Positions 1,489 through 40,058 of a stretch of DNA of 64,000 nt are shown in pieces. Under the pieces are notes generated by a model. The model was given only the letters and a program-made list of their open reading frames with translations. It had not been told where the DNA came from and did no database searches. The stretch is taken from NCBI RefSeq assembly GCF_002934365.1, contig NZ_PTIY01000014.1:1-64000 (forward strand), in the 5' to 3' direction. This DNA is from Methylobacter tundripaludum. Its GTDB lineage: Bacteria; Pseudomonadota; Gammaproteobacteria; Methylococcales; Methylomonadaceae. Every line of letters starts with the position of its first letter. Position 1 is the stretch's first letter. A program made the position numbers and the translations under genes.

Positions 1489-1489
1489 A

Positions 1490-3098: not shown

Positions 3099-3145
3099 AA
3101 CGACACCTAAAAAGGATGGGCGACGATTTACGCCGCCCGGATTGA

Positions 3146-3346: not shown

Positions 3347-3391
3347 GATATTTCTCACTTTTCTAAATTGTCCGAAAGGACGTTAAAATAA

Positions 3392-3416: not shown

Positions 3417-3466
3417 AATCACACACCAAAAGGTGTTTTTTTGGCTTGCCACACACCAACCAAAAT

Positions 3467-3784
3467 TTATTTAGGCGAATCCTGTACAAGTTCGGGAACT
3501 GTACCTTTGGGGATAAACAAAATGGTATTGTCGCCGACTGACATAATGCCGATTTCGAAACGAATGTTTTTATTCAGGTGCTGCTTGAACGCTGCAATGT
3601 CATGACAGGTAAAATCCTGTAACAGCGCGCGCTTTTCGCCGCTCTGCATAATCGAATCGCCCATGATTTGAATCTTGTCTTTACCCGGCAATAAAACGCC
3701 GGTTTCAATGCCGTCTTTGCGTTCTTTGACGGGATTCGCTGTATAAGCGTTTATCAGCTTGCCTTGACAGGTTATAAGTGCCAT
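3467..3784 (-). CDS. Phage ssDNA-binding protein (gene V-like)
   Basis: The 105-residue product contains beta-strand-rich sequence with alternating hydrophobic and charged residues. It has the length and position (directly after the replication initiator and before the coat genes) of inovirus gene V-type single-stranded DNA-binding proteins, which coat the nascent plus strand before packaging. No membrane segment or signal peptide is present. Residue-level motifs for this family are weak, so the call is mainly by gene order and size. Confidence 0.7.
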   Translation of the reverse strand: MALITCQGKLINAYTANPVKERKDGIETGVLLPGKDKIQIMGDSIMQSGEKRALLQDFTCHDIAAFKQHLNKNIRFEIGIMSVGDNTILFIPKGTVPELVQDSPK

Positions 3785-3827
3785 TTTTAATACCTCGAAA
3801 GTGATGCCTTGCGGCTTGCGTACAGCG

Positions 3828-8354: not shown

Positions 8355-8356
8355 GA

Positions 8357-12639: not shown

Positions 12640-13097
12640 GATGTGCCCCAAATTTATCCGGTTACAAGATTAGAATGAACAGCAAAGGTTATACAGTAAA
12701 AACATCAGCATAGCTTTTTTGTGGCGCATGACTTGGAGGGATGTTTTGTAAGAACAATTGCTTATGATTTAGTGAGGTTTGTTTGACTTCAATTGATATT
12801 GTTTTTCATTTTAATACGATTATTCGGCGGATGCGACATTATTATCTCTACTAAGGTTTATTATTTCTACTAAGTTTAAGTATGTTCGACGTAAGTTTTT
12901 GCAATGGCCCAATAGCGGAAAAAACAAACTCAAGGCATTACTGATACTCGTTAAAATTTAATTACTTACCCAAGCAAATACGCAGAAATGAATCCCGGAT
13001 GACCAGTTTTTTGGAATGGCGTAAAAAACAATCTTGATGCGGCTCATTCATTATGTTACTCTCCGAAAAAAATAGCACTTTAATAGGGGATAATATC
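12640..13097. other. AT-rich divergent intergenic region
   Basis: The 458 bp separate the leftward efflux operon from a rightward DUF697 gene and must carry both promoters. TATAAC-like and TTGAC-like hexamers are present, but no pair with convincing spacing and no clear operator palindrome could be picked out by eye. No open frame of coding character is seen. Confidence 0.5.
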
Positions 13098-13610
13098 GTG
13101 ACATCTGAACAACAAATTGAGTCAAACGCACTTCAATCCGAAGACGCCCAAGTTTCTCGCGAACAGGCAGCTAATCTTGTTATTAGTAAATATACCGGCT
13201 GGGCGGCTGGATCTGGCGTTATTCCTTTCCCTTTCTGGGATGTAGCCGCAATCGCCGCTGTTGAAATAAAAATGGTCAATGAGCTATTGGATATTTACGA
13301 TAAACCTTTTTCTGAATCGAAAACCCGCTCAATTCTGACCATTCTGATCGGCAGTCTTTCGCCTCAGCTGCTGGTCGGAGTAACGGCCGCCACACTGTTC
13401 AAAGTGATACCTGGCATAGGTTCTGCCCTGTCCATCATGAGCATGCCTATTCTTGCAGCCGCATCCGCCTATGCCGTTGGCCAAGTAATGGTAAATCACC
13501 TGAAAAACGGCGGCGACCTGACTAATTTTGACCCAAAAGCTAAACTAGATGATTTCAAAGCCTACTTTAAGGAAGGCAAGAAAAAAGTCGATCCTGCTGC
13601 TACAACATAA
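13098..13610 (+). CDS. DUF697-like membrane protein
   Basis: The GTG at 13098 is preferred to an ATG at 13053 because AGGGGA (13085-13090) sits 7 nt before it. The roughly 170-residue product has a DUF697-type core: a segment SKYTGWAAGSGVIPFPFWD, then AAIAAVEIKMVNELLDIYDK, and two hydrophobic helical stretches (about residues 80-105 and 108-130, with VIPGIGSALSI). The tail is Lys-rich. DUF697 domains often occur with GTPase domains or alone as inner-membrane proteins; no specific function is known to me. It is monocistronic, followed by a hairpin at 13681. Confidence 0.78.
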   Translation: MTSEQQIESNALQSEDAQVSREQAANLVISKYTGWAAGSGVIPFPFWDVAAIAAVEIKMVNELLDIYDKPFSESKTRSILTILIGSLSPQLLVGVTAATLFKVIPGIGSALSIMSMPILAAASAYAVGQVMVNHLKNGGDLTNFDPKAKLDDFKAYFKEGKKKVDPAATT

Positions 13611-14232: not shown

Positions 14233-17200
14233 ATGTCTGCACAAAACGAACAAGCAATTGCCTTCGGACAGGGCATTTCAATACAACTGCCTAATCAACA
14301 ACTGCATAATTGCTTCGAGGCCTTGGTTGATCAACAGCCAGATGAGCCTGCAATCATCTTTAAAAACAAGACATTAACTTATTGTCAATTGGATCAATCG
14401 TCTAATGCTCTCGCCAATGCCTTGCTGAAGCGGCCAATTAGAACGGAAGAACCTATAGGTGTGTTGGTAGAACGCTCTGGATCGCTCCCAATTGCTTTTC
14501 TAGCTATTTTAAAAGCGGGAGGTGTTTATGTGCCTCTGGTCCATGATCATCCGTCCAATAGACTTGCCAATATCGTTGAACAGACGGGTATGCGGTATTT
14601 AATCGCACTGGATGGTTTGGAGCCGGCATCGGAAATTCTTAACGCGTTAGCAGCCAATAATGACGGCATTGCTGAGATTTTCCGGACCGAGGATACGCGG
14701 GAGGGAATCTTCGCGCGGCCTGATTTAACTGTTAGCTCATCGAGTCTCGCCGCTATTTTGTTCACCTCCGGCACAAACGGCCAACCCAAAGGAGTACTCC
14801 TTCGGCATGATGCCTGCATCAACATGGTGTGCGGTCACTTAGCCGCTCAAAATATCACTTCAAAAGATCGGTTGCTGCTTTCAAGCGGACCAGGCTTCAT
14901 TCTAGGATTTCGTGAGCTGTGCCTGCCGCTGTTGTCCGGCGCCGCTTATGTTGCTGTTACTCGAAACGAAATAGACAACCCTGACCGGCTACTCATGATT
15001 ATGTCACAGCATAAGGTCAGCATAGCGCTTTTCACCCCCTCTTATTTGCGCCTTTTACAGGGTAAGTTATCCAGTGGCCTGCGCTGTATCATGACGGCCG
15101 GCGAGCATCCCGATGAAAATAATGCCCGTCATTATGCCAAATCCATTGACTATTGGAACATGCATGGCGCCACCGAAGTGTGCGGCACGATATGTATGTA
15201 TAAGGTTAATCCGAACGATGTGGGGACGTTGCCGAGCGGTCGGCCTTTCAGTAATACAAGTGTTTATCTGCTTGATGAATATGGCGATGAGGTGCCGCAA
15301 GGCGAAATAGGAGAGATTCATGTTGTCGGTACCGGCTTAGCCAACGGCTACCTGAACCAGCCCGAACTGAGCGCACAAATTTTTGTGCAAACAAAGTTTG
15401 GACGGGCCTATAAAACCCGTGACATGGGGCGTTGGCGTGCTGACGGCAACCTGGAAACAATCGGCCGTTCTGACGATGTCATCAAAGTTTCGGGCCAAGC
15501 GGTTGCTCTGAGCGAAATTGAACGCACTCTTTTGCGCCACCCAAAGGTCAAGCAAGCGGCTGTCATTCAAAACGGCACCAAACTTGTTGCGTTCCTAGAA
15601 TGCGGAGATGATTCACCAGTAGATTGGCGAGACTATTTGTCCTCGACCCTTCCGGCGTACATGATCCCTTCATCAATTAACCGGCTGGAGCGCTTGCCTA
15701 CCAATTCTTCCGGCAAGATAGACCGGCAGGCGTTATTGACCAGGGCAAAGAGTTTTTCCCGTACTATCAGCGCCCCTCCCGACGGGCGTATAGAACAAGA
15801 AATAGCAGAAGTCTGGGCCGACATTCTTAAATTGGACGCGATTGGCCGTCATGACAATTTTTTTGCAATTGGCGGCACCAGCTTGCTTGCCATTGCAATC
15901 AGCCAGCAACTCCAGTCTATGGGCTATGCCGTAACAGTGCCGACCCTATTGGTTAATCTGACCGTGGCCGGCTTGGCCGATCACCTGTCGCAAGTGTCCG
16001 CCGAAGCGCCCGCACCGGCTGATAATATTTCAACCAGAGGCCAAGAGGATTTCTGGATTGGCGCCCAATTGGGGGTTTTGCAATCAAGCATGTTGATAAC
16101 GCGCCTGTTGCGGATTAGCGGCGATTCGCCAAGCCAAGAAACATGGCGGGCGGCGTGGCAAAAATTATTGGAGCGCCATAGTGCGCTACGCACGGCATTT
16201 TACCAGGACGCAAACGAAAAAATACGCTGGCAAACCGATGCACTGGATGAGCTTCCCGCCGAATCGGCTTTAAAAACAGCAAGCTGCAATTCGCTGGAGG
16301 ACGCAAGCGAGCGGGTCGCTGCTTGGGCTTCTATCCCGTTTGACCTGAGCAAAGCCCCTTTGGCTCGGGCCGGCTTGATACAAACCCCGGAAGCGCAACT
16401 GTTCTGGTTCGCTCTTCATCATGTTGTTGTAGACGGTTTGTCAGCCAGGATTTTACAGGAGGAGCTATATACTTTATTGCAAGGTAAAACCCTCCCTCCC
16501 GCTGCCGACGGCATAAATTTTGCTTGCGCCGCAGAACAGGCCTATCTAAGAACGCAGCAAGCGGAAATAGACAGGCATTTCTGGCAAGAGCACTTAAAAA
16601 ATACGGTTGTAGGCACCAACGGGAATGCATTTAATGCATTTGCAACGGATTTTGAACGGCCACTTATTCCGACAAGCAAAGCGGCCAAATCATTGACCGA
16701 ACGGCTTGATGCGCCATGCGTGGAAGCGTTAACCCAGCTGGCCCGCAGCCAAGGCGTGGGGATGCACTCGCTATTGCTGGCCATACTTGGCGACGAGGCA
16801 AGAAGACGAAGCGGCCGAACGACCCTGATTATTGGCAGTGCAATATCCATGCGGCCTGCCGGCGCGGAACAGGCGGTCGGGCTATTCGTTAACCTGTTGC
16901 CGTTGGTGTTGCATGGCGATAGAAGCGATCAATTCAATGCACAACTTCACAACGCCCAGTCGACGCTGAATACCGCAATCCAGTCGATCGGCACGCCCTC
17001 ATCGCAAATATTGCGCGATTTTCAAAATAAAAATCCTGATATTTTGCCGCTTTCACGCACCTCCATTTTTGACATTTCCTTAACCGCCAACACATCGCGC
17101 ATCAGTGAAGCTAAGGATGCAGCGTTTAGTCTTGCTCCGCAGGCCTTACCCGGCGAACTGAACCCGGTTCCCAGCGGTATCGATTTGGCTTTCTCCCATG

Positions 17201-20200
17201 AGCCGGACTTACAGGGCGGGCTGATATTGACATTGGCTTGGAATCCCGAGCTTTACCGTCAAAGTACGGCCCAGTCCTGGCTGACTGCGTTTAAAGAACG
17301 GGCCGTTTGGTTGGGCGCCGATCTATCCCGCGCCCAAAACCCGATGCCGCCCTTGTTACCTTTTGAGCAGCAGCTGCTGCAAAAATGGGAGCAAGGACCC
17401 GCGCTTCCGGTGCCTGAACGTTGCTTCCAGCAAGTCTTCGAGGCCTGGGCTCAAAAGACGCCGCTTCATCATGCCGTCGTCTGCGAACATGAAACCGTCA
17501 CTTACGCCGAACTGAACCGCCGGGCCAACGGCATTGCCCATGCCCTGTTGGAGCATGGCCTGGAAAGCGGCGACACCGTTGCCGTCTTGACCGACATTTG
17601 CGACGGCTTGCCCGCCGTCGTGCTGGGCATCTGGAAAGCCGGGGCCGCCTATTTGCCGTTGGCGGCAGACCACCCGCCCGAACGGCTGGCTCATATGATG
17701 GCCGACGCCAAGGCCCGGATCCTGGTCGTACCGGACAACCTGCCCGTCCCAGCAGCCTTGTCGGATATGGCGACGGCGGTCTTAACGCCCGACTGCCGAC
17801 AGCCTACGGAACGGCGCCCGGATATTGTCCGCCCGGCCGACAGCGTGGCCTATGTCATCTATACCTCCGGCACGACAGGAATGCCCAAGGGCGTCCCCAT
17901 ATCCCACGCTGCGATGATCAACACCATACAGGAATCGGCCCGCGCCATTCGCCTGACCGCAGACGATCGTGTCGCACTGGTCGCGACGCCCAGTTTTGAC
18001 GCTTCCTTATGGGAGCTGGGCCTGGGCCTGCTCAATGGCGCCGCGCTGGCGCCGATTTCAAAAAGCCTGCGCGACGACCCGTGGGCCATGAAGGATTATT
18101 ACGCCAAAATGGCGGTGACCGTGGCCTTCCACGCCCCGTCCTATTTGCGTATCAGCAAAAACAAGCCGTTTAACGGCTTGCGCGTGCTGATTGTCGGCGG
18201 CGAGCCGTCCAGCCACGAGGACGTGAACATTCACGGCCGCGAGGTCGAGTTTTGGCATGCCTATGGCCCCACGGAAACGACCATCATCGTCAGCCTGGAG
18301 CATATTCCCCCCTTCCCCGATCCCAGCCGTCCTTTGTCCGTCGGACCGCCGTTGGCCAACACCCTCATATCGATCCGCAACGGCGGCGGGCAACCCGTGC
18401 CTCCCGGCGTCATTGGCGAAATCTGGTTGGGCGGGCTGGGCCTGTCCAGGGGCTATCTGAATAATGACGAGCTGACCGCCGAACGCTTTGTGACCGTTGA
18501 CGGTTGCCGGTTCTACCGATCCGGCGATTTGGGCTGCTGGACGGACGATGGCCGTCTGGTCATCAAAGGCCGCATGGATCACCAAATCAAAATCCACGGC
18601 CAGCGCATCGAATTGGAGGAAATTGAAACGGCCCTGCTGGCGCTGCCGGATGTCACCGAAGCCATCGTATTGGTGGAAAATGCCGCCAACGGCACCCAAT
18701 TTCTGCGCGGCTTTGTCGCTATGGCCCAAGGCTGCGTCTTGCCCGGCGAGGCGGACTGGCATCCCCGCCTGGCCGCCCGCCTGCCCCATTACATGATTCC
18801 GGCCACCCTGACTGCGATTGAGCGTATTCCGCTAACCGTTAACGGCAAGGTGGACAGGACGGCGCTATTGCAATTAGTCGGCGAAGCGCAGGTCGAGGTT
18901 ATAAAAACACCGCCATCCACCTCGATGGAAGTGCTTATCGCGCCGATTTGGAGCGAATTGCTGGGCCAGGACGTTTGCCGCGAAGATAATTTTTTCGGCC
19001 TGGGCGGCAACAGCCTGCTGGCCGTCGCAATGGCGCATCGCCTGTCCAAGGCCTTGGCAGTCAGCATTCCGGCGCGCTACCTGTATACCGCGCCCACACT
19101 GGCCGTATTTGCCGCCCGTGTCGATGATACCCGGATTCAATATCAAAATCTTACCAAATCACCCGAAGCCAGCGACATAGCCACCGAAGGCGAGCTTGAA
19201 TTCTGGGTGGCCGAGCAGGCAGGGATTAATACCACCCCCTTCATAATGCCTTTGATCCGCAAGGTGCAGGGTAATATTCCTGCTCTGGAAAAATGGAACC
19301 GGGCATGGGCCAAGTTAACGGAACGACACGAATCATTGCGGACACAATTTGTCGAAGACGATCAAGGAACTTTACGCCGTGTCGTGACCCGGATAGCCCA
19401 GCCGGGACTTGAAGAAATAACAGTCAGCGACCTGGCGAGCGCCAATGCGCTTATCCGCGAGCGTCAAAGCCGGCCTATTCCGCTCAATGTCGCGCCGCTT
19501 TGGCAAGGCGGCTTGGTGCATGTCGAAAAAACAAACGAAACACTGTTTTGGCTTGCGATGCATCATGCCGTTGGCGATGGAGTTTCCTTTAATATTTTAC
19601 TGGATGAGCTGGCCCTGTTATTACAGGATAAAGAGCTGCCCCCGCTCGTGGGAAGCTATGCGCATTCCGCTGCCAGAGCCTTATCCTATCTGGCCGGTGA
19701 TGAGTTTAAGCATGATTTTTCGTATTGGCGCAATAGTCTGGCGGCCTTGCCGGAAACGGCCTTTGAAGACTGGTCATTGGATATACCCCGGTTGCAGACC
19801 GGCAAGCCCGGCTACCACCGGCTGCAAATATGCCTGCCGGCCGATATTACGTTGGGATTAAAGGCCATTGCCCAGCGCTACGACAGCAGCATGCATGCGC
19901 TGATGCTGACCCTTCTTGCGCTGGAAACCCGCCGACGTTCGCAACGGCGGCAATTTTTGATCGGCACGCCCGCCGACATGCGCGAAACCACCGAAGAAGC
20001 CGGCATCATCGGCTATTATGTCAACATGTTGCCGTTGATCATGGACGGCGATGCCGGCGATAGCTTTGAAACCCAATTAACCGGCACCCAACAGGTGTTG
20101 GCTGCCGCCTTGCACCACGGACGCGTGCCGTTTGCGCGCATTTATAACGACTTCCGCCAACAACGTCCCGGTTACCGCCATCCGTCCCGTTATCCGTTGT

Positions 20201-23200: not shown

Positions 23201-26200
23201 CCGTGGTCAATTATTTTCTCAATATGCTGCCGATAGCCTGCCGGATTAACCGAAACGATTCGGTAGAACAGTCGATGGCCGCCATGCAGCTTGGCATCAG
23301 CCGGGCCTTGCAGCATGAACGTTATCCGTTTGCCCAAATCTGCCAGGATTTTCGCAATCGCCATGCGGCATCAAACCACCCTACCCGCTTTCCGCTATTT
23401 GATCTGGCCGTTACGGAAAATCCGGGTTTAGGTTCGGTCTCCGAAAGACATATCAAGCTTGTGCCTGTCAATGACAGCGCGACCAAGGAGATGCGCTACG
23501 ATCTCCGGCCTAACCCGCCGCCGCAGGACATGGTGTTGATTCATGAAGCCCTTGCCGATGACAGACTTGGGTTGTATTGGTACGTTGACGCCAACCTTTA
23601 CGAAAAAGATACCGCGTTGGCCTGGATCAATACTTTATTGGATTGGATGCGTTTTATCGTATCCCCGGAACGCCAAGCGCAAACAGCTTTGCCGTTGCTG
23701 ACCGCAGGTGAAGAAAAGCTATTGGACAGTTGGCAATACGGCCCGTCTTTACCCAAGCCTACCGGCTATTTGCAAGACCAATTTATGCGGATAGCCGGGC
23801 AAGAATCGCATAGCCCTGCTTTGCTGGTAGATCATGAAAGCCAAAGTTATGGGCAAATAGACAAGCAAAGCAACGGTCTGGCGCAGGTTTTGCGAAGGCA
23901 CGGCATTGGCCCCGGTGTTGCGGTGGGGGTACTGACCGAGCGATCAACAGCCTTGCCAGCGACTGTTTTGGCGATCTGGAAGGCCGGAGGCTGTTATCTG
24001 CCTTTGTCCGCCGAACTGCCCGGAGAACGGCTAAAATTTATCGCCGAAGATGCGGACATCAACTTATTAGTGGCGCTGGACGGACTGGCGATACCATCGG
24101 AATTGGCATCCTATGCGTTCCTGCGCCCGGAAACGCCGGCCTACGAATCGACCGCACCAATCAACCACGGCTGCCGGGATACTGACCCGGCGTATATCAT
24201 TTATACTTCCGGCTCCACCGGGGAACCCAAGGGCGTGGTTATAACCTTCGAAGGCTACGCCAATTTTTGCCTGGGCATGAAACTGGCGCTGACCATTTCT
24301 CCTGACGACAAAATATTGCAAATTTCTTCGCCCTCGTTTGACGCCTGGCTGCACGAACTGGGGCTGGCATGGTTTCATGGCGGCGCCTTAGCGCCCGTAG
24401 TCCGCAGAGAATTGGACGACATTTCCGGGATGCTTTTAAAAATGCAAGGTCTGGGCATTACCATAGCGACCCTGTCGCCATCGTATCTGGGATTATTTGG
24501 CAACGCCGAGTTCCCCGGTTTACGGATGCTGATGACAATGGGCGAGCCGCCGGTGAAGGCCAACGCCCTGCACTACGCAGGCCGCCTGACTTACATTAAC
24601 GGTTACGGCCCGTCGGAAAACAGCGTGGGTTCCTGTATTGGGCAAATCACCCCCCAATCCACGCGCATGACTGCGGGACGCCCATTAGCTAATACTTCCG
24701 TTCATATCCTGAACAAGGACCGGCAGCCGGTGCCGCCGGGATCGGCCGGCACCCTCTGGCTGGGAGGACGCGGCCTCTCGCCCGGTTATTTGAACCGCCC
24801 GGAACTGACGGCTGAAAGCTTTGTCGAAACCCCGGAAGGGCGCTTTTATAACTCCGGCGATTTGGCGCGCTGGACGCAGCAGGGCGAAATTGAAATCCTC
24901 GGGCGGATAGACAACCAGATAAAACTTCGCGGTCAACGCATCGAACTGGAGGAAATAGAACACCAAATCGGCCTGCATCCTGACGTATTGCAGGCCGCCG
25001 TGGTTATTCATGGTATGGCGGACGGGACACCGGGTTTGTACGGTTTTGTCTGTCTGCACCCGGAAGCGTCCGCAATCGGTAACGGCGAATGGCGTTCATT
25101 TTTGGCGAAGAAAGTACCCGATTATATGATCCCCTCGGCGATAAAGGCGGTGCCGGGCATTCCAGTATCGCTGGCCGGTAAAATCGATCGTAAAAGACTA
25201 ATTGCCGACTATCTTGATCAAGACATCGACATGATCGCGTCAAACGATTCCGATGTCGGCAGGCTAACGCCCCCTGGCAACCGGGTCGAAAAACTGATTG
25301 CCGAAGCATGGTCGGAAATTTTTCCAGGACGCACCATCTACAGCGAGGACAATTTCTTTGAACTCGGTGGCCACAGCCTTGCGGCCATTAGTGTCGTGAA
25401 CCGTCTTCGGCTGGAATTTACCTGCACCATCAATAATCTTTACGAACACCCGGTACTGGCCGATTTTGCCAAAACTTGCCAACCCAGGCACGAACATATT
25501 CGCGATCTATTGGCTAAAGTTAAAGTAGATTGGCAAGCCTATTCGGACCACTTAGAGGCCAACCCCAATCACCGCATTGACGGGCTTAAGGCTGCACAAG
25601 AACAGTATTGCGCCCGTAACAAAAAATACAGCGACATCGACCTCGGCCCTCGTAAAGATTATGAAAATATCTTGCTGACAGGGGCAACCGGCTATGTCGG
25701 CTGCTATTTGCTTCGGGAAATGCTAAAGGAAGGTAAGCGAAAGATCACAGCCTTGGTCAGAGGGACCGATCATGCGGCCAGCCGGGACAGGCTGCATCAG
25801 GTATTGGCGCATTATTTCGGCCCTAAAACGGGAGAGGAACTGGCTTATCATCCCCGATTGCAGGTATTGTCCAGTGACTTGAGCCGGCCAAGCTTGGGCC
25901 TGAGTCAAGATCAATGGACATGGCTGGCTACCCGGACCCAGGCTATTTTCCATTGTGCGGCCAATGTAAAACATTATGGTCACTACCAGGAGTTTCATCG
26001 GGATAACATTAACTCGGTGCAGAATTTGCTGGAACTGGCCGCATACAATTTGGACGCCCCCATGGACTTCCATCTGGTTTCCACCACCTCGGTCGTCGGC
26101 AAGCCCCCGGAAAGCGGGTTCAAGTTGTTCACCGAATATGACTTGCCCAACCCGGACTTAAGCGACAACTACTATATACGGACCAAACAGGAAGCCGAAC

Positions 26201-26772
26201 GGCTGGTATTGGATGCACGGGGCAAACTGAGCAACGCCAGCATCTACCGTGTCGGCAATGTGGTGTTTGCGACCGATGACAGTAACTTGCAGATCAATCT
26301 CAAAGACAATGCTTTTTTTCGCTTAGTCGCTGCATTGATTGAATTAGGCGCGGTTCCGAAAAAAGTTGAGGCCTTATTTTGCCATGTCGATTTAGTCGCC
26401 AGGGCGGTAATGCTGCTTGCGGAAACGCAGGCTTTGTCCAACGAAACGCATCATATCGAACATTCCCAGGAAACGTCCTTGGCGGAATTCATTAGCATCG
26501 CATTTCCATTAGTTACCTGCGATTTCGGCATGTTCATCGATCATTTGCTCAAGGCCTTGGACAAACCCGAACAGCAACAGGCTTTTTACGAAGTGCTGGA
26601 CGGTTTTAACCTGTATGGGGGGCAAGCTCCCCAAGTCAAAGCCCAGCATATTGAATTGACCAGTGTCCGCACCAACGAACTGCTTAAACGCTTAGGGTTG
26701 GCGTGGACCGATACTTCATCTGACGGCCAGCTGCGGTTCCTGCGGGAAGCTGCTTTACATTTTAAAAATTAA
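14233..26772 (+). CDS. Four-module NRPS with terminal reductase
   Basis: This giant 4179-residue synthetase is predicted to build a four-unit product and release it by NAD(P)H reduction. Domain order with approximate residues: A1 25-500, T1 (Ser 549), C1 602-1040 (HHVVVDG at 729), A2 1060-1560, T2 (Ser 1591), C2 1653-2100 (HHAVGDG 1777), A3 2112-2620, T3 (Ser 2650), C3 2711-3150 (HHAVGDG 2834), A4 3175-3680, T4 (Ser 3711), reductase 3812-4179 with TGATGYVG and YIRTK. The C domains keep RHxxLRT and VNLLP/VNMLP/LNMLP motifs but have a divergent first motif (E-x-FW). There is no epimerase, thioesterase or MbtH protein. A1 lacks the substrate-anchoring Asp (GFILGF where SFDAS is usual). Module 2 is visibly richer in G+C than module 1. 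The stop overlaps the RBS of the next gene. Confidence 0.96.
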   Translation: MSAQNEQAIAFGQGISIQLPNQQLHNCFEALVDQQPDEPAIIFKNKTLTYCQLDQSSNALANALLKRPIRTEEPIGVLVERSGSLPIAFLAILKAGGVYVPLVHDHPSNRLANIVEQTGMRYLIALDGLEPASEILNALAANNDGIAEIFRTEDTREGIFARPDLTVSSSSLAAILFTSGTNGQPKGVLLRHDACINMVCGHLAAQNITSKDRLLLSSGPGFILGFRELCLPLLSGAAYVAVTRNEIDNPDRLLMIMSQHKVSIALFTPSYLRLLQGKLSSGLRCIMTAGEHPDENNARHYAKSIDYWNMHGATEVCGTICMYKVNPNDVGTLPSGRPFSNTSVYLLDEYGDEVPQGEIGEIHVVGTGLANGYLNQPELSAQIFVQTKFGRAYKTRDMGRWRADGNLETIGRSDDVIKVSGQAVALSEIERTLLRHPKVKQAAVIQNGTKLVAFLECGDDSPVDWRDYLSSTLPAYMIPSSINRLERLPTNSSGKIDRQALLTRAKSFSRTISAPPDGRIEQEIAEVWADILKLDAIGRHDNFFAIGGTSLLAIAISQQLQSMGYAVTVPTLLVNLTVAGLADHLSQVSAEAPAPADNISTRGQEDFWIGAQLGVLQSSMLITRLLRISGDSPSQETWRAAWQKLLERHSALRTAFYQDANEKIRWQTDALDELPAESALKTASCNSLEDASERVAAWASIPFDLSKAPLARAGLIQTPEAQLFWFALHHVVVDGLSARILQEELYTLLQGKTLPPAADGINFACAAEQAYLRTQQAEIDRHFWQEHLKNTVVGTNGNAFNAFATDFERPLIPTSKAAKSLTERLDAPCVEALTQLARSQGVGMHSLLLAILGDEARRRSGRTTLIIGSAISMRPAGAEQAVGLFVNLLPLVLHGDRSDQFNAQLHNAQSTLNTAIQSIGTPSSQILRDFQNKNPDILPLSRTSIFDISLTANTSRISEAKDAAFSLAPQALPGELNPVPSGIDLAFSHEPDLQGGLILTLAWNPELYRQSTAQSWLTAFKERAVWLGADLSRAQNPMPPLLPFEQQLLQKWEQGPALPVPERCFQQVFEAWAQKTPLHHAVVCEHETVTYAELNRRANGIAHALLEHGLESGDTVAVLTDICDGLPAVVLGIWKAGAAYLPLAADHPPERLAHMMADAKARILVVPDNLPVPAALSDMATAVLTPDCRQPTERRPDIVRPADSVAYVIYTSGTTGMPKGVPISHAAMINTIQESARAIRLTADDRVALVATPSFDASLWELGLGLLNGAALAPISKSLRDDPWAMKDYYAKMAVTVAFHAPSYLRISKNKPFNGLRVLIVGGEPSSHEDVNIHGREVEFWHAYGPTETTIIVSLEHIPPFPDPSRPLSVGPPLANTLISIRNGGGQPVPPGVIGEIWLGGLGLSRGYLNNDELTAERFVTVDGCRFYRSGDLGCWTDDGRLVIKGRMDHQIKIHGQRIELEEIETALLALPDVTEAIVLVENAANGTQFLRGFVAMAQGCVLPGEADWHPRLAARLPHYMIPATLTAIERIPLTVNGKVDRTALLQLVGEAQVEVIKTPPSTSMEVLIAPIWSELLGQDVCREDNFFGLGGNSLLAVAMAHRLSKALAVSIPARYLYTAPTLAVFAARVDDTRIQYQNLTKSPEASDIATEGELEFWVAEQAGINTTPFIMPLIRKVQGNIPALEKWNRAWAKLTERHESLRTQFVEDDQGTLRRVVTRIAQPGLEEITVSDLASANALIRERQSRPIPLNVAPLWQGGLVHVEKTNETLFWLAMHHAVGDGVSFNILLDELALLLQDKELPPLVGSYAHSAARALSYLAGDEFKHDFSYWRNSLAALPETAFEDWSLDIPRLQTGKPGYHRLQICLPADITLGLKAIAQRYDSSMHALMLTLLALETRRRSQRRQFLIGTPADMRETTEEAGIIGYYVNMLPLIMDGDAGDSFETQLTGTQQVLAAALHHGRVPFARIYNDFRQQRPGYRHPSRYPLFDFAVNENPQARIDKADIGFRSLARFSEAIEYELVDVSPGQDMVFIHEILPGGELMLQLQVNSAVYLLETATAWFNSLRWWVEWLCADKGHARMPLPKLLPQESKLLAQNGYGRTVHRPNQRFHELFESVIDSMGVDSSKRLAVMTPESRFSYLSVEEQANRLANALIQSGIKPGAVIGVLTGRSPQLPSTILGIWKAGAIYLPLSIDLPVERLCHMVNDAAVRQLIVLDGLDIPQAIAQVTPTHLRPEQLADFHSHRPSISGDAGDTAYIIYTSGSTGLPKGALIAHKSYVNMALGCGEILGINSDDRCLMFYSPSFDVSLSDIGVPLLFGATVCPVHDDLIDSPNQFMKFLNDTQITVADISPTYLRLFDSADFQYLRILVTGGEAPFPADIVKYSKQISYFNAYGPTENTVTCALGQLTINHTRTPSCGLPLPNTSIHICDANGNLLPPGEIGELWLGGMGLANGYLGREDLTLASFVETPEGRRYRSGDIGRWLTRLPNSPGAVDEVQFMGRMDSQIKMNGIRIELGEIEHIVNGHPSVFQATVLADEIADKKQRLSAFIHLRNDRACPSDIEWRDYLSAHLPAATIPTSFIIVDSIPVNSSGKVDTACLRGLARAQQNNTVSENPPQTPMEKRVAAIWCELLKLETVRKDDNFFALGGHSLVAIAAAHRLERDLNRPVAARELFAFPVLSDFSRRIDTEDQAPAADFIPTDRATTGQLEFWVAEKIGKANRGLNLTFSVAEQDRKVAAEQWRQAWGELVGRHPALRTYFKEDADGQLLRQILPTLDMELERQCLPDLSAARIHIANLQTMTIPMSSAPLWRAGLVFVEDTRQEVFWLALHHAVGDGLSIGILLDELSQLLAGEKLPALSGDYNHFAGRELAYLKDRAAADAEYWSETLDGLGNGDENTPQPFDEWPLDFSRPINSGDGKNKGGHFFRIALEAATAQKLKAFASRHGASLHALMMALVAMETSRRTGRPNFVMGTVGSTRELAEDSAVVNYFLNMLPIACRINRNDSVEQSMAAMQLGISRALQHERYPFAQICQDFRNRHAASNHPTRFPLFDLAVTENPGLGSVSERHIKLVPVNDSATKEMRYDLRPNPPPQDMVLIHEALADDRLGLYWYVDANLYEKDTALAWINTLLDWMRFIVSPERQAQTALPLLTAGEEKLLDSWQYGPSLPKPTGYLQDQFMRIAGQESHSPALLVDHESQSYGQIDKQSNGLAQVLRRHGIGPGVAVGVLTERSTALPATVLAIWKAGGCYLPLSAELPGERLKFIAEDADINLLVALDGLAIPSELASYAFLRPETPAYESTAPINHGCRDTDPAYIIYTSGSTGEPKGVVITFEGYANFCLGMKLALTISPDDKILQISSPSFDAWLHELGLAWFHGGALAPVVRRELDDISGMLLKMQGLGITIATLSPSYLGLFGNAEFPGLRMLMTMGEPPVKANALHYAGRLTYINGYGPSENSVGSCIGQITPQSTRMTAGRPLANTSVHILNKDRQPVPPGSAGTLWLGGRGLSPGYLNRPELTAESFVETPEGRFYNSGDLARWTQQGEIEILGRIDNQIKLRGQRIELEEIEHQIGLHPDVLQAAVVIHGMADGTPGLYGFVCLHPEASAIGNGEWRSFLAKKVPDYMIPSAIKAVPGIPVSLAGKIDRKRLIADYLDQDIDMIASNDSDVGRLTPPGNRVEKLIAEAWSEIFPGRTIYSEDNFFELGGHSLAAISVVNRLRLEFTCTINNLYEHPVLADFAKTCQPRHEHIRDLLAKVKVDWQAYSDHLEANPNHRIDGLKAAQEQYCARNKKYSDIDLGPRKDYENILLTGATGYVGCYLLREMLKEGKRKITALVRGTDHAASRDRLHQVLAHYFGPKTGEELAYHPRLQVLSSDLSRPSLGLSQDQWTWLATRTQAIFHCAANVKHYGHYQEFHRDNINSVQNLLELAAYNLDAPMDFHLVSTTSVVGKPPESGFKLFTEYDLPNPDLSDNYYIRTKQEAERLVLDARGKLSNASIYRVGNVVFATDDSNLQINLKDNAFFRLVAALIELGAVPKKVEALFCHVDLVARAVMLLAETQALSNETHHIEHSQETSLAEFISIAFPLVTCDFGMFIDHLLKALDKPEQQQAFYEVLDGFNLYGGQAPQVKAQHIELTSVRTNELLKRLGLAWTDTSSDGQLRFLREAALHFKN

Positions 26773-26781
26773 GGAGATAGC

Positions 26782-27756
26782 ATGTTGAAGCACGTTCGCA
26801 ATTTGGGGTTGCGTATTGGCGAGTTCGACTCGCCAAATTTTGATACAAAGGAAATAGCGGCTTCGCTCGATATTCTGCACAAATATTTTGGTACAGATAG
26901 CTCTTCTATTCGTCCCCATCCTAACGAAGACATTATTCGCGATGAAATCCGCTCAATTGCTCCAAAGATCGCGACGCTGGCTGACACACTGATTGAAACT
27001 TTGGAAAGTTCCCACAGCGGCATATTTATTCCAAAATTTAAATTGGATACTTTTGATGTTGAAACGCGTAAATTTGTGTTGTACGCATTGACGCTATGCA
27101 TGGGGCACCCTTCCGCTACCGATCAGGTCGATAATCGTATAATTTGGGATATAAAAGCACGAGACGAGCTTTTGCAACCGAACCATATACCCACTTACTC
27201 AGAACACGCAAATGAAGCCGAATTACATACCGATACCCAATATCACCCCGAGCCTGAACGTTATTTAATCCTGTACTTTATCAGGCAAGCTAACTGTGGC
27301 GGCGGGGCTTCGATATTGCGTGATTTCAATTCCATTAAACAAAATATGCGCCAAAGCGCTGAGGGAGCCTGGGCGGTTGATTATCTGGAGAAAACCAACT
27401 TACCCTTCCAGGTCCCTACCAGCTTTACATCCAACCGGCGCTCGGATAGCGTGGAAGTCACTATCGCCCCAATTTTCGGTACATTTCCGAGTATCCGTTA
27501 CAGGCGCGATACTCTAAAAAGAGGGCTTCAGGCACGAACGGAATACGATACATCCGAGACACGCTATGCTGTCAATCTCTTAGAAAGAGAACTTCAAAAT
27601 ACAGAGTTGCTGGTCAAAAATACTTGTCATTCAGATGGTTTTTTAATGCTTAACAATCATGAAGCGCTACACGGCAGAGAATTGTTTACAGATCGAGATC
27701 GCTATGCTGTCAGAATACGCATTTCGAACAAAAATATTAATGCCGGAGTCGCTTAA
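26782..27756 (+). CDS. TauD/SyrP-type Fe(II)/2-oxoglutarate dioxygenase
   Basis: This is a probable tailoring hydroxylase of the peptide or a carrier-bound residue. The 324-residue product has the facial-triad HxD as HTD near residues 149-151 (context AELHTDTQY), the distal His in NNHEALHGRELF near residue 297, and the 2-oxoglutarate-binding Arg in RYAVRIRI near residue 310. This is the TauD/TfdA/clavaminate-synthase fold used by NRPS-associated hydroxylases such as SyrP. AAGGAG precedes the ATG, within the NRPS stop region, and its stop overlaps the exporter start (TAATG), so it is cotranscribed. Substrate and position hydroxylated are unknown; desaturation or another oxidation is also possible. 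Confidence 0.88.
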   Translation: MLKHVRNLGLRIGEFDSPNFDTKEIAASLDILHKYFGTDSSSIRPHPNEDIIRDEIRSIAPKIATLADTLIETLESSHSGIFIPKFKLDTFDVETRKFVLYALTLCMGHPSATDQVDNRIIWDIKARDELLQPNHIPTYSEHANEAELHTDTQYHPEPERYLILYFIRQANCGGGASILRDFNSIKQNMRQSAEGAWAVDYLEKTNLPFQVPTSFTSNRRSDSVEVTIAPIFGTFPSIRYRRDTLKRGLQARTEYDTSETRYAVNLLERELQNTELLVKNTCHSDGFLMLNNHEALHGRELFTDRDRYAVRIRISNKNINAGVA

Positions 27757-29393
27757 TGAATTTTCAATTTTTCACTTTTCTTAATAATGAAACGGGGGAA
27801 GTCAATTTCAAACTGATTTTAATGACCGCCACATCGGGGCTATCCAATACTTTGAATTTAGCGCTTATTAACGCATCCGTAGCATCGATGAAAGAGGGTG
27901 GCCCTTTTTGGCAACATTTTGTGATTTTCGGCATCAGTCTGACACTGTTCGTGTATTCCCTTCGATACATCCTCTACGAATCCAGCCGCATCGCTGAAAA
28001 AGCTGTCTGTAACATTCGCGCCCGGTTAGGAGATAAAATCCGTCGGTGTGATTTACAGTCGCTAGAAAAAATCGGTGAATCGGACATTCTAGCCCGTATC
28101 AGCCGGGATACCGGCATGATCAGCCAGACGACAAGACCGCTTTTTGCCGCTACCCAAGCCGCATTCATGGTTATATTTACCTTGTTGTACATTGCCGTAG
28201 AATCGCCGATTGCTGTTGTGCTATGCGGAATTATGATTCTATGTGGAGCTATTTTTTATATGAAGGATCGAGATGCCTATGAAAAAGGCCTGTCGGATTC
28301 ATCGGACTCGGAAGATGAATTAGCCAAATCATTGACTGGTTTATTGAGAGGATTCAAGGAAATTAGAATCAATCAGAAAAAAAGCGATGCTGTATTTGCC
28401 GATTTTTGTGATATCGCATCAACCGTAAGCATCGTCCGCACTAAAGTTATGCAGTTGTATGCTGATACAGTGGTATTCATAGAAATGTTCTTCGTCATCC
28501 TTCTTGGCGGCGTTGTGTTTATACTCCCGGTCATTTCCAATGAGTTTGCAGGAACAGTCACTCAGATCGTAGCGGCGATTCTGTTTTTTTTTGGTCCGCT
28601 AGCAACTGTTATCATGATGTATCCTGTCTATATGCAGGCTAACATGACAGTGGACAATCTCTATCGTCTGGAAAGGGATTTGGACAGAGATCAAAAAGTC
28701 AAAAATGATTCACATAGCATTGTTCAACAGGAATTCAACGATTTTAAAACCATACGTTTTGATCAAGTCGGTTTTATCTATGCCGATCCCGATGGCTTAC
28801 CCAGTTTTCAAATCGGCCCCATTACGACGACTGTAAACCGGGGGGAAATATTGTTTCTGATTGGTGGTAATGGGAGTGGTAAAACCAGTTTTATGAAACT
28901 TTTCACGTTACTCTATTTACCCACTTCCGGTACTATTTTTGTCGATGACCAGCCAATTGACGATGTCAATATCATTTCATATCGAAACCTTTTTTCAGCC
29001 ATTTTCTCCGATTTTTATTTATTCGATAAACTATACGGTGTCGGTGATGTTCCGCCGGAACGTGTGCAAGAACTCTTAAAACTGATGGGCATTGCCCATA
29101 AAACCGGAATTAAAAACGGCTGCTTTACCAATACCAACTTATCAACCGGCCAACGCAAACGCTTGGCGCTGGTAATGGCTTATCTTGAAGACAAGCCTGT
29201 ATATATCTTTGATGAAGTGGCTGCTGACCAAGATCCACAATTTCGCAGCTATTTCTACGAAACATTATTACCCGAACTCAAGGCGGCCGGCAAAACGATA
29301 TTAGTTGTCTCTCACGACGACCGATATTTCCATGTAGCGGATCGGATTCTGCAAATGGATTACGGTCAGTTATTTGCCTACATGGATAAATGA
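27756..29393 (+). CDS. Cyclic-peptide-type ABC exporter (PvdE/SyrD-like)
   Basis: This fused exporter has a six-helix membrane domain (about residues 15-300) and a C-terminal ATPase. The Walker A motif is GGNGSGKTS (near residue 370), the ABC signature is LSTGQRKR (near 463), Walker B is VYIFDEVAADQDP (near 484), and the switch His lies in VVSHDDRY. The YIFDEVAADQDPxFR sequence and overall length of 545 residues are those of the cyclic peptide/siderophore exporter family (SyrD, PvdE). It very likely moves the NRPS product across the inner membrane. The start overlaps the dioxygenase stop by 1 bp. It works as a homodimer by family analogy. Confidence 0.92.
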   Translation: MNFQFFTFLNNETGEVNFKLILMTATSGLSNTLNLALINASVASMKEGGPFWQHFVIFGISLTLFVYSLRYILYESSRIAEKAVCNIRARLGDKIRRCDLQSLEKIGESDILARISRDTGMISQTTRPLFAATQAAFMVIFTLLYIAVESPIAVVLCGIMILCGAIFYMKDRDAYEKGLSDSSDSEDELAKSLTGLLRGFKEIRINQKKSDAVFADFCDIASTVSIVRTKVMQLYADTVVFIEMFFVILLGGVVFILPVISNEFAGTVTQIVAAILFFFGPLATVIMMYPVYMQANMTVDNLYRLERDLDRDQKVKNDSHSIVQQEFNDFKTIRFDQVGFIYADPDGLPSFQIGPITTTVNRGEILFLIGGNGSGKTSFMKLFTLLYLPTSGTIFVDDQPIDDVNIISYRNLFSAIFSDFYLFDKLYGVGDVPPERVQELLKLMGIAHKTGIKNGCFTNTNLSTGQRKRLALVMAYLEDKPVYIFDEVAADQDPQFRSYFYETLLPELKAAGKTILVVSHDDRYFHVADRILQMDYGQLFAYMDK

Positions 29394-29438
29394 CATGACA
29401 TCATTCAAAACTTCACGCATAAAAAAGAGTAAGCCGCT

Positions 29439-30305
29439 ATGAGAAGTATCATAAACTGGTTTCAGAATCGTTACCGTGCCCTTGGGAACCTGGTAAGCCG
29501 TCAAGCTCCGTATATCGTCATTTTCATAGTCCTATTAAGTTTCGGTGCTGTGCTGTGTTTTGACAGAATCGTTATATCAGTCCACTCCGGGGAATTGGGG
29601 GTGCTCTGGCGGCGCTTAGGAGGGGGGACTGTGTTAGATACCGTCTACCATGAAGGACTTCATGTCATTCTTCCTATCAACAAAATGTATGTTTATAATG
29701 TCCGTAAACAGCAGTACACCGATTCCATAGAGACTTTAACCACTGATGGCTTATCTGTCCATGTCCAGTTTCAAGTCCGTTATTTCATCGCCCCAGACAT
29801 GCTTCCCCTGCTCCATCAACGTATCGGCCCGGATTATGTCGATGTCATGATTCGTCCGGAAGTTCGAGCGGCAATCCGCACGGTCTTTGGTCAATATAAA
29901 CCCGAAGAGATTTACAATAACCAGAAATCCAATCAAGAACGCATCAGCGAATTATCCAGAATACGCCTGGAAGCGGGTTATGTTTCATTGGACGATGTAT
30001 TGATTGTGAGTATCACCTTGCCCGATAAAATATCGCAAGCCATTGAAAACAAAATGACATACCAACAAATTGACGGCGAATACGCTTACAGGTTATCAAT
30101 AGCCCAAAAGGAAGCCAGTCGCAGAAAAATTGAAGCCGATAGTCTCGCTCTGTACAACACTACCTTAAAGTCCAGTCTAAGCCCTGATGTGCTTCGCTGG
30201 CGAGGCATAGCCGCAACTGAAGAGCTGGCAAAATCGAACAATGCCAAGACCATTGTAATTGGTTCAGGCGCTTCAGGATTGCCGATTATTCTGGGTAAAG
30301 AATAG
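29439..30305 (+). CDS. Prohibitin-like SPFH membrane protein
   Basis: The 288-residue protein has one N-terminal membrane helix (about residues 24-42) and then a band-7/SPFH domain (about 45-220; GLHVILPINKMYVYNVRKQQ, TTDGLSVHVQFQVRYFI). A helical segment rich in Glu, Ala and Lys (about 215-250) follows, and a C-terminal part with ATEELAKSNNAKTIVIGSG like that of prohibitins. SPFH proteins form large membrane rings that scaffold partners or regulate proteases. It begins 45 bp after the exporter and lies 4 bp before the binding-protein gene, so it belongs to the same transcription unit. Its link to peptide export or self-protection is inference from position only. Confidence 0.87.
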   Translation: MRSIINWFQNRYRALGNLVSRQAPYIVIFIVLLSFGAVLCFDRIVISVHSGELGVLWRRLGGGTVLDTVYHEGLHVILPINKMYVYNVRKQQYTDSIETLTTDGLSVHVQFQVRYFIAPDMLPLLHQRIGPDYVDVMIRPEVRAAIRTVFGQYKPEEIYNNQKSNQERISELSRIRLEAGYVSLDDVLIVSITLPDKISQAIENKMTYQQIDGEYAYRLSIAQKEASRRKIEADSLALYNTTLKSSLSPDVLRWRGIAATEELAKSNNAKTIVIGSGASGLPIILGKE

Positions 30306-30309
30306 AATT

Positions 30310-31464
30310 ATGGACCGTCTTATTCGAGTGTTGTTTATTTTTGCCTTGATGACGTTTGTTTTTATTCAGCAAGGAAGATCGCTGGACAAATATGCTTTAA
30401 AACGGCAACAACATACCGAAAATTCACTTGCGCCCTTGACAGTCGGCGTCAGCTGGCCGTTCAATAAGGCGCAAGACGGCTTTGCTCAGGGCCTGGAGCT
30501 TGCCAAAGAGGAGATTGAGTCAAACGGGGGGCCACGAATTAAACTCATTATTAGAGATGACCAGAATGATTGGGAAACATCACGGAAGATTGCCCTTGAA
30601 TTCGTAAGCAACCCGGACATGACGGCGGTAATTGGCTATCGTGATGACAGCATTGCAATTAGGGTGTCGGGTATTTATGAACAGGCGGAGCTTTTGCACA
30701 TGATTGTAGGCGCCACAACTGCCAGCCTCACAGAGCATGATTTCGTTTATATCGTAAGAACCATCAACCCCATAGAAGACGATGTGGTCCCGCTGGTAAG
30801 GGCCGCGCCCAAATCAAATAATGGCGAGTTAAAATATGCAATGGTTTGGGAGGCGCAGGAACGCTCCAGTGAATTAGCCTATCAATATCAAATCGCTCAA
30901 AATAAAAATAATGGCGAATTGATTTATCAGAAACAATATGATCCCGAAACGATGGATATCCGGCATATAGTCAATGAACTGCGTGGCGCGGCCCCCGACG
31001 TTATTTATTTTTCGGGGTCTCCTGAAACTACCGGGGAATTTGTCCGCACTACACGAAACTTGGGAATTGACATCCCCATTACCTTGATCAGCAAAGGCAT
31101 GAGTGAGTTGGAGAAAATTGCCGGTAAAAATGCAATGCGTAACATAATCTATTTGGATTTTTATGACAAAGATGCAAAAAATAAAGAGAATGTCTATTTC
31201 GTGGAAAAATTTTTGGCCCGTTTTGGCAAGTACCCTGACACATGGGCCGCACAAGGATATGATGCACTCAATATACTTGCCGGCGCCTCGCGTCTAAGCC
31301 ATTCCAACTTTGCGCTTGATTTAGCCTCTGCAATAAAATTTTCCCATCCTTGGCATGGAGCCAATGGAATCTATCGTTTTGATCGAAAAGGCGAGTTAAG
31401 GTCTAAACCGGTTTTTGTACGTGTGCTAAACAGCAACGGTGAGCAAGAGGGGGATCTCAGGTAA
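30310..31464 (+). CDS. Type I periplasmic-binding protein (Leu/Ile/Val-type fold)
   Basis: The ATG at 30310, 4 nt after the SPFH stop, is the natural start; a longer frame would overlap the SPFH gene. The 384-residue product begins with an uncleaved-looking or weak signal segment (LIRVLFIFALMTFVFIQQ), so it may be membrane-anchored. It then has a two-lobed Peripla_BP_6-like fold: LTVGVSWPFNKAQDGFAQGLELA, then TAVIGYRDDS, VIYFSGSPETTGEFVR, and DTWAAQGYDALNIL near the end. No ABC permease or ATPase for uptake is nearby, so it may act as a sensor or binding partner rather than a transporter component. It is the last gene of the operon. Confidence 0.85.
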   Translation: MDRLIRVLFIFALMTFVFIQQGRSLDKYALKRQQHTENSLAPLTVGVSWPFNKAQDGFAQGLELAKEEIESNGGPRIKLIIRDDQNDWETSRKIALEFVSNPDMTAVIGYRDDSIAIRVSGIYEQAELLHMIVGATTASLTEHDFVYIVRTINPIEDDVVPLVRAAPKSNNGELKYAMVWEAQERSSELAYQYQIAQNKNNGELIYQKQYDPETMDIRHIVNELRGAAPDVIYFSGSPETTGEFVRTTRNLGIDIPITLISKGMSELEKIAGKNAMRNIIYLDFYDKDAKNKENVYFVEKFLARFGKYPDTWAAQGYDALNILAGASRLSHSNFALDLASAIKFSHPWHGANGIYRFDRKGELRSKPVFVRVLNSNGEQEGDLR

Positions 31465-40012: not shown

Positions 40013-40058
40013 GTCTAACTTCTCGAATTAACCTGCATAACGATAACAAGGAACTCTA

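Follow-up and report, generated by a model that had tools for sequence, protein, structure and literature searches.

On balance, we favor a reading in which the 64,000-nucleotide stretch of Methylobacter tundripaludum DNA analyzed here (the window) carries a horizontally spread assembly line for a small, reductively released peptide, together with a recurrent envelope module that would export or otherwise handle this peptide. The assembly line is a single nonribosomal peptide synthetase (NRPS) gene on the + strand (14233..26772; 4,179 aa). On the same strand, it is followed by genes for a TauD/TfdA-type Fe(II)/2-oxoglutarate dioxygenase (26782..27756; 324 aa), a SyrD/PvdE-type (cyclic peptide export) ABC exporter (27756..29393; 545 aa), an SPFH/Band 7 (prohibitin-like) protein with one N-terminal hydrophobic helix (29439..30305; 288 aa), and a type I periplasmic-binding protein (30310..31464; 384 aa). 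The gaps between these genes are 9, -1, 45, and 4 bases in window coordinates, in agreement with an initial annotation that described the genes as lying without real gaps. Its placement of the five genes and its naming of the last four are likewise borne out by the open reading frames and by Pfam and NCBIfam profile scores: 53 bits for the dioxygenase (PF02668; cut-off, 27), 329.2 bits for the exporter (TIGR01194; subfamily cut-off, 286.2), 99.8 bits for the SPFH protein (PF01145, Band_7; cut-off, 23.6), and 103.2 bits for the binding protein (Peripla_BP_6). The binding protein most likely starts at ATG 30310 rather than TTG 30259; its N-terminal segment is hydrophobic (a signal peptide or an anchor), and its first 60 residues contain no Cys. 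While those genes hold, the set reaches further upstream than had been recognized, since a gene for a DUF697/slr1306-like small membrane protein (13053..13610, + strand; 185 aa; PF05128, 38.6 bits versus a cut-off of 27.7) was overlooked. Homologs of this protein occur in 21 of 35 clustered sources, the window included, and the copy at G000:C17 is 84% identical. The methanotroph host proposed earlier fits the two tandem Mpt_N (methylene-H4MPT dehydrogenase) genes found within the window.

The NRPS has the domain order A-T-C-A-T-C-A-T-C-A-T-R, as the initial annotation had it. Pfam finds four AMP-binding, three Condensation, four PP-binding, and one NAD_binding_4 stretches in its 4,179 residues; the reading frame is open, all of the C, T, and R motifs sought are present, and the order A1-C1-A2-C2-A3-C3-A4-R recurs in orthologs. 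With approximate bounds, the adenylation domains lie at 14302..15750 (A1), 17380..18882 (A2), 20530..22032 (A3), and 23680..25212 (A4), and the condensation domains lie at 16030..17352 (C1, HHVVVDG), 19150..20472 (C2, HHAVGDG), and 22330..23652 (C3, HHAVGDG), all on the + strand. At the C terminus, a thioester reductase (R) domain with TGATGYVG and YxxxK motifs (25675..26406, + strand) takes the place of a thioesterase, none of which is among the Pfam matches of the protein; this is the arrangement of NRPSs with a terminal R domain. The R domain scores 143.5 bits against PF07993 (cut-off, 20.1), although it stays below the cut-off of the narrower TIGR01746 (176.3 versus 213.35). Reductase domains release aldehydes or alcohols. 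The earlier proposal of a reductively released peptide with its own exporter is thus supported, as a prediction, by the R domain and the TIGR01194 score, while release as an aldehyde cannot be distinguished from release as an alcohol from the sequence.

The identity of the building blocks can be approached through the adenylation domains. We read their codes at ten positions that we take to line the substrate pocket, in an alignment of 14 NRPS rows, several of them fragments. The A1 code is ILRLMAMGTK in the window; Asp235, a position checked on an alignment to LgrA, is absent, and Arg239 is kept, in all nine readable NRPSs. A1 reads in this way as a domain that probably loads a carboxylic acid lacking an alpha-amine. 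A2 (DAWFIGAIIK in the window) reads DAWF(I/L)GxI(I/V/L) in 10 of 10 readable rows and is Leu-like, and A3 (DVSDVGAVTK) reads DVSD(V/I)GA(V/I)(T/S)K in 11 of 11 and is basic, or Arg-like, both by comparison with reference codes. Codes 1 to 3 are largely conserved across the orthologs. At A4, the window has DAHTMMGVGK and differs from the 11 other readable rows, which share D(L/A/S)STMVGAAK. Modules 2 to 4 would then add a Leu-like residue, an Arg-like residue, and a third residue, after which the R domain would reduce the thioester to a free aldehyde (or alcohol). This predicts, as the product, an N-acyl tripeptide set free by reduction. A starter without an N-terminal amine would leave nothing on which to close, so the cyclic imine suggested by the initial annotation now appears unlikely.

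Collinear orthologs of about 4,180 residues are encoded in Rhizomicrobium, on Azospirillum plasmids, and in Chlorobiaceae. Those measured (Rhizomicrobium, two Azospirillum, and two Chlorobiaceae proteins) are 46 to 50% identical to the window NRPS over about 4,100 aligned positions, and similar gene company surrounds the NRPS in distant phyla; the Chlorobiaceae exporters are only 32 to 37% identical to that of the window. A set unique to the source strain is thereby ruled out. The pocket codes are largely conserved in hosts as distant as green sulfur bacteria, Alphaproteobacteria, and a methanotroph, which suggests that these hosts make a related compound for a common role. With few candidates scored per genome, the R domain is found in 15 of 98 Chlorobiales genomes and in 1 of 301 genomes of the window's order, namely the source genome alone. 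The R-domain query recovers the family at E values of about 3e-94 or better, with no match at 1e-30 in the 300 other genomes of the order and nothing else at that threshold in the phylum sample (397 other genomes); one weaker match outside the family (1.2e-38) comes from 1 of 385 genomes.

The dioxygenase has a narrower distribution. It retains the HxD...H iron site (HTD...H) and the 2-oxoglutarate-binding arginine, and it is 45 to 47% identical to Azospirillum genes that occupy the same position in the two records opened; among the orthologous clusters tested, it is shared with Azospirillum only. Within the window's order, it is found in 1 of 101 genomes, the source genome, where the query recovers its own gene. 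A search of the 13 genomes that hold the nearest SPFH loci gave no copy of it, although such an empty result carries little weight alone. Among solved structures, the best match is 7n7v (1e-9), and arginine hydroxylases of the VioC type match at 6.6e-4 to 0.0086; a phmmer search of the PDB with the single sequence gave no matches. In the window and in Azospirillum, this enzyme probably hydroxylates one residue of the peptide.

The exporter, SPFH, binding-protein, and DUF697 genes form a wider module of their own. Most of the evidence comes from 79 SPFH loci, drawn from the 80 top-ranked among 267 confirmed stretches that a single peptide pattern retrieved, and from 40 control stretches of 10 genomes (Methylococcales, Rhizomicrobium, M. 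fulvum, and Chlorobiaceae), which cover fewer groups than the test loci. Control positions were fixed before inspection, and some fall on cluster-bearing contigs, outside the cluster. Near the SPFH gene, at least one partner is present in 78 of these 79 loci, compared with none of the 40 controls, an association beyond chance. Taken singly, the binding protein is present in 59 of the 79 loci, DUF697 in 54, and the SyrD exporter in 47 (tblastn, with minima of 300 aligned residues and 180 bits, applied equally to control DNA), each versus 0 of 40 controls. DUF697 as a chance neighbor is thus ruled out. These counts are to be read with the loci being partly interdependent (six Pseudoalteromonas SPFH rows, for example, lie at most about 1% apart in the tree), with 40 of the 79 being whole and many others meeting contig ends, and with simple ORF calling having missed or misplaced some genes, including the SPFH gene in 3 of 79 loci.

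An NRPS or PKS gene lies within 10 kb in 37 of the same 79 loci. The remaining 42, many of which meet contig ends, have no NRPS/PKS ORF of at least 600 aa in that range; hence, the module belongs to no single product and does not always accompany an assembly line. An RND triad was considered as a further general component and rejected (1 of 79 loci versus 3 of 40 controls); close homologs of such a triad do adjoin the module in L089 to L092. Separately, on Tistrella pTM3, which we take to be the didemnin plasmid, an SPFH gene lies near RND and NRPS-like genes. In the SPFH tree, the window protein falls in a 16-row clade with 100/100 support, among Acidobacteriota, alphaproteobacterial, Myxococcota, and Chlorobiota rows and apart from those of Methylococcales; the latter copies are about 40% identical, and inheritance within Methylococcales is ruled out. 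The Azospirillum SPFH protein lies outside this clade on a long branch. In open-licence PMC literature, represented in part by titles and the beginnings of abstracts, we found no description of the module or of the assembly line. In the portions available, a paper on Pseudomonas aeruginosa SPFH proteins (PMC13086221) contains neither "ABC transporter" nor "nonribosomal," and PMC6282198 touches on NRPSs only briefly.

What might this module do? The SyrD-type exporter would carry the peptide over the inner membrane, with the SPFH protein acting as an inner-membrane scaffold at the exporter, the binding protein catching the peptide on the periplasmic side, and DUF697 serving as a membrane partner. 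More broadly, and tentatively, at least ten phyla may share an unnamed envelope machine, a SyrD-type exporter in an SPFH scaffold with an often tethered type I binding protein and DUF697, that passes assembly-line peptides through the cell envelope; the present operon would couple this machine to N-acyl peptide aldehydes of a new and conserved class.

Alternatively, the SPFH, binding, and DUF697 proteins may serve sensing and self-protection, with the binding protein sensing the product in the periplasm and a signal through SPFH/DUF697 regulating export or membrane stress, and with no part in transport. We regard this as rather unlikely, yet several observations agree with it. A Pfam scan of 26 genes of the window, lying between 137 and 47478, turned up no importer permease or importer ATPase. 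Of 62 binding-protein ORFs from the 79 loci, 25 carry a lipobox-like motif, and the binding protein of L071 is a fusion with TSP3 and OmpA domains, features that suit a tethered receptor. Furthermore, the module is present in loci without an NRPS, and a methyl-accepting chemotaxis gene adjoins the Azospirillum cluster. Conversely, Pfam detects no known signaling output domain in three binding proteins (those of the window, L060, and L071), the C-terminal part of the L060 protein having no family match, and the exporter accompanies the module in 47 of the 79 loci. In our view, it is slightly more probable that the SPFH and binding proteins help to export the product or to capture it than that they act in sensing or self-protection.

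Importers are the usual partners of type I binding proteins, and R-domain siderophore synthetases exist; the R domain scores 133 bits with the MxcG HMM, a value below the cut-off of that model. The product could accordingly be a metal- or nutrient-scavenging peptide with the binding protein as its uptake receptor, but this is improbable: neither a TonB receptor nor an importer is among the 26 window genes scanned, the A codes give no apparent hint of iron ligands, and the binding protein scores 56.5 against a cut-off of 477 for the branched-chain amino acid-binding subfamily (PRK15404). Equally improbable is that the cluster yields nothing in the source organism, its NRPS being silent and the genes for the dioxygenase, exporter, SPFH protein, and binding protein being ordinary neighbors, for although G+C content is mosaic (54.3% in the NRPS versus 42 to 45% in the genes behind it) and the dioxygenase and R domain are rare within the order, the motifs are intact, the frame is open, the gaps are near zero, and similar gene company recurs in distant phyla.

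To our knowledge, it is poorly understood how nonribosomal peptides, once past the ABC exporter, cross the Gram-negative envelope. The recurrent exporter-SPFH-binding-protein-DUF697 set is a concrete, genetically testable candidate for this step and could serve as a handle in mining genomes for new NRPS/PKS clusters. Both the peptide and the module are worth isolating, because the same assembly line is found in very distant bacteria and the module is found again next to other assembly lines for peptides and polyketides. Azospirillum, a cultured soil and root bacterium, would be a workable host for finding the product.

Among known systems, aureusimine and myxochelin, like spumigin and aeruginosin, are products of R-domain NRPSs, whose synthetases share with the window protein a series of NRPS modules that ends in NAD(P)-dependent reductive release. 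Yet the window protein falls below the equivalog cut-offs for AusA (1601.6 versus 2500) and MxcG (1338.7 versus 2300), and it differs from these systems in its A1 domain without Asp235 and in having four A-T units on one protein. As far as the available parts of the reports indicate, livipeptin is a small peptide aldehyde from an R-domain NRPS (PMC10548850), and Xenorhabdus indica has an ATRed NRPS (PMC7586950). The exporter belongs with the SyrD/PvdE family by its TIGR01194 score; that family comprises cyclic peptide exporters, whereas the predicted product here is linear, and the window gene shares an operon with SPFH and binding-protein genes. The SPFH protein has the Band_7 domain and N-terminal membrane helix of HflK, HflC, and other SPFH proteins but misses the HflK and HflC equivalog cut-offs (22.7 versus 159.4 and 14.8 versus 134.4).

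The initial annotation knew of no described system with this exact set. Azospirillum plasmid records (NZ_CP022363.1 and NZ_CP007795.1), in which the features carry generic product names, qualify this claim: they hold the NRPS, dioxygenase, exporter, DUF697, and SPFH genes, the NRPS being orthologous and collinear and the dioxygenase in the same place. The binding protein is absent there; these clusters also have a second ABC exporter gene and one for an alpha/beta hydrolase, and their SPFH protein is divergent. In Thalassobaculum, a single case was reported of an NRPS/PKS with a cyclic-peptide exporter and a prohibitin next to it (PMC12016528); the assembly line is a different one, and the accessible part of the report makes no mention of a binding protein or DUF697, but an exporter-SPFH pair adjoins the assembly line there just as it does in the window.

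All five genes that the initial annotation had joined into one operon (14233-31464) were confirmed, and the observation was then extended; the interpretation attached to them is supported in part. The genome of Methylobacter tundripaludum comprises 4.18 Mb in 45 contigs, and the window covers bases 1-64000 of NZ_PTIY01000014.1. The nonribosomal peptide synthetase (NRPS) has 4,179 residues with four adenylation (A), four carrier, three condensation (C), and one reductase (R) stretches, and contains three HHxxxDG motifs, four carrier motifs, and the reductase nucleotide motif TGATGYVG and YxxxK. Downstream lie a TauD-type dioxygenase, an exporter above the cut-off of the cyclic-peptide exporter family TIGR01194, a Band_7 (SPFH) protein with a single N-terminal membrane helix, and a Peripla_BP_6 binding protein, separated by 9, -1, 45, and 4 bases along the five genes. 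With ATG 30310 as its most suitable start, the binding protein has a hydrophobic N-terminal segment, possibly a signal peptide or anchor, and lacks Cys within its first 60 residues. A DUF697 protein of 185 residues, encoded upstream at 13053-13610, had been overlooked. The G+C content drops from 54.3% in the NRPS gene to 42-45% across the four that follow, giving the operon a mosaic appearance.

Upstream of the operon, an RND pump triad occupies 6954-12651 on the minus strand; its homologues (63-87% identical) occur near an exporter and SPFH gene at four loci of other Methylococcales (L089-L092), three of which also carry DUF697. A Zot-domain protein (PF05707) and a Phage_GPA replication protein within the first 5 kb (137-5201, minus strand) are probably a filamentous-phage remnant, and a tandem gene pair at 39104-40982 encodes proteins with the N-terminal domain of methylene-H4MPT dehydrogenase.

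Within the order, SPFH matches occur in 30 of 201 genomes and binding-protein matches in 21 of 201 (E 1e-20). We fetched 34 stretches, most of them around such matches and two from the other NRPS of the same genome. Counting the window, the four most widespread protein clusters among the 35 sources were SPFH (29), the binding protein (25), DUF697 (21), and the exporter (20); the lead of the first two reflects how the stretches were selected, whereas that of DUF697 and the exporter does not. The M. tundripaludum genome itself has a second exporter-SPFH-DUF697 group (G000:C17:33000-52900, L086), whose DUF697 protein is 84% identical to that of the window and which perhaps arose by recent duplication; the binding-protein query matched this genome in the window only, not at that group. 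It also has a second, larger, reductase-terminated NRPS cluster (G000:C16:45000-84828, L093 and L087), whose reductase domain is the genome's top PF07993 match. Among the other loci, a Methylobacter relative has a tandem SPFH-PBP-SPFH-PBP duplication (L066, 6114-11269), and four from Methylococcales (L060-L063) have a protein of about 705 residues, an ammonium transporter family member in the L060 copy, after SPFH and a 632-638-residue binding protein. In L070 (6124-13635), a 1,994-residue KS-AT-ACP-aminotransferase-C protein immediately precedes a module-type binding protein.

The association extends far beyond the order. An alignment of 26 SPFH proteins was used in one scan of genome contigs, which gave 267 confirmed stretches; the best 80 of these, representing 79 loci, were kept, and partners were sought by ORF-independent tblastn at fixed thresholds. 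Of these 79 loci, 59 have the binding protein, 47 the exporter, 54 DUF697, and 22 A and C domains together; at least one of the three partners is found in 78, at least two in 60, and all three in 22, although the loci share ancestry and these counts are not independent events. Forty 20-kb control stretches, drawn from 10 genomes, yielded none of these proteins or domain pairs, and RND pumps, the control family, were present at 1 of 79 loci versus 3 of 40 controls. Of the 40 untruncated loci, 29 have the binding protein, 29 the exporter, 30 DUF697, and 15 A and C domains. When ORFs of 600 residues or more are considered, an NRPS/PKS lies within 10 kb at 37 of the 79 loci and not at the other 42. 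Rows of the SPFH tree span ten named phyla. At least some binding proteins are tethered, since the one in L071 forms a fusion with TSP3 and OmpA domains and a lipobox-like motif occurs close to the beginning of 25 of the 62 binding-protein ORFs at the 79 loci. In a Skermanella plasmid record, DUF697, exporter, prohibitin, and MbtH genes adjoin NRPS genes; in one from Rhodobacteraceae SC52, genes for a phosphopantetheinyl-transferase protein and TauD are followed by an ABC gene, prohibitin, and DUF697.

Among the best 80 of the 267 stretches, the closest SPFH relatives (57-65%) belong not to methanotrophs but to Magnetospirillum, Rhizomicrobium, one alphaproteobacterial and one deltaproteobacterial MAG, Acidobacteria, and Chlorobiaceae, and the window protein falls in a 16-row clade (support 100/100) with Acidobacteriota, Alphaproteobacteria, Myxococcota, and Chlorobiota. 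Several of the nearest loci adjoin an NRPS orthologue, and two (L098 and L100) adjoin a different NRPS. R-domain matches were obtained in 9 of 12 genomes of these nearest loci and not in M. molischianum and the two Acidobacteria with L098 and L100. The full A1-C1-A2-C2-A3-C3-A4-R layout is present in Rhizomicrobium (4,169 aa) and five Chlorobiaceae (4,175-4,193 aa), and a partial one in L191, the alphaproteobacterial MAG locus L185 (split frames), and M. fulvum (contig edge). Rhizomicrobium has a divergent DUF697 gene followed by NRPS, exporter (63%), SPFH, and binding protein. In six Chlorobiaceae stretches, some of them cut, two exporter-like genes (32-37%) lie behind the NRPS, and the SPFH, binding-protein, and DUF697 genes flank its other side; L102 additionally has genes for a phosphopantetheinyl transferase and an MFS protein close by. 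Seven Azospirillum plasmid records match A1 (57-58%) and TauD (45-47%), and the two opened contain NRPS, TauD, two ABC genes, a hydrolase, DUF697, a hypothetical protein, and prohibitin; the SPFH protein of these two sits on a long branch apart from the clade that holds the window protein. Identity to the window NRPS is 49.5-49.9% for Azospirillum and Rhizomicrobium and 46-47% for the two Chlorobiaceae measured. The R-domain query matched 15 of 98 Chlorobiales genomes (about 3e-94 or better) and 2 of 385 in the class of Rhizomicrobium, namely, Rhizomicrobium itself and one weaker match (1.2e-38); the window's own genome was the sole match, both in 301 genomes of the order and in the 398-genome phylum sample. 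TauD was found in none of 13 genomes of the nearest loci, again from the best 80 of 267 stretches, and the window's own genome gave its sole match among 101 genomes of the order. The simplest reading is that the assembly line spread horizontally.

Pocket codes were read through a 14-row alignment, with several rows being fragments, at what we take to be the code positions. A1 reads ILR-x-(I/M/L)-(A/S)-x-G-(T/A)-K in all nine readable rows, with Ile at the position aligned with Asp235, where LgrA has Asp. Since the absence of Asp235 is a sign of acids that lack an alpha-amine, A1 is expected to load an acyl starter, and its conserved Arg239 could bind an acidic or otherwise polar group. The A2 code (alike in 10 of 10 rows) resembles what is presumably a Leu code, and the A3 code (11 of 11) what we take to be an Arg code. 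A4 reads D(L/A/S)STMVGAAK in 11 of 12 readable rows; the window instead has DAHTMMGVGK, and so its reduced residue may differ from that of the relatives. The expected product would be N-acyl-Leu-like-Arg-like-X with a reduced C terminus. The initial annotation had also proposed a cyclic imine; a macrocyclic imine is unlikely because the predicted product has no N-terminal amine. The dioxygenase keeps HTD...H and Arg, and a profile of five homologues weakly matches the clavaminate-synthase/arginine-hydroxylase group (best, 7n7v at 1e-9), which suggests that it hydroxylates a residue.

Exporters of this family move peptides outward, and large membrane assemblies are typical of SPFH proteins. Together with the SPFH membrane helix and the finding of no importer adjoining the binding protein among the 26 window genes scanned, this favors a model in which SPFH would scaffold the exporter and the binding protein would catch the product in the periplasm, a reading of the module that we consider about evenly balanced. 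The main rival, put forward at the outset and in our view less likely, is that the SPFH/binding-protein pair serves sensing or self-protection. For the scaffolded exporter with a periplasmic catcher, the Azospirillum operon, which has no binding protein, speaks against a strict need for that component.

Among the open-licence PMC papers searched, none was found to describe this assembly line or the module itself. One paper reports, as a single case, a Thalassobaculum NRPS/PKS adjoined by a cyclic-peptide exporter and prohibitin (PMC12016528). The predicted product can be likened to small peptide-aldehyde protease inhibitors (PMC10548850). The NRPS is new, conserved, and of a known type; what is unusual is that it is coupled to a recurrent exporter-SPFH-PBP-DUF697 module.
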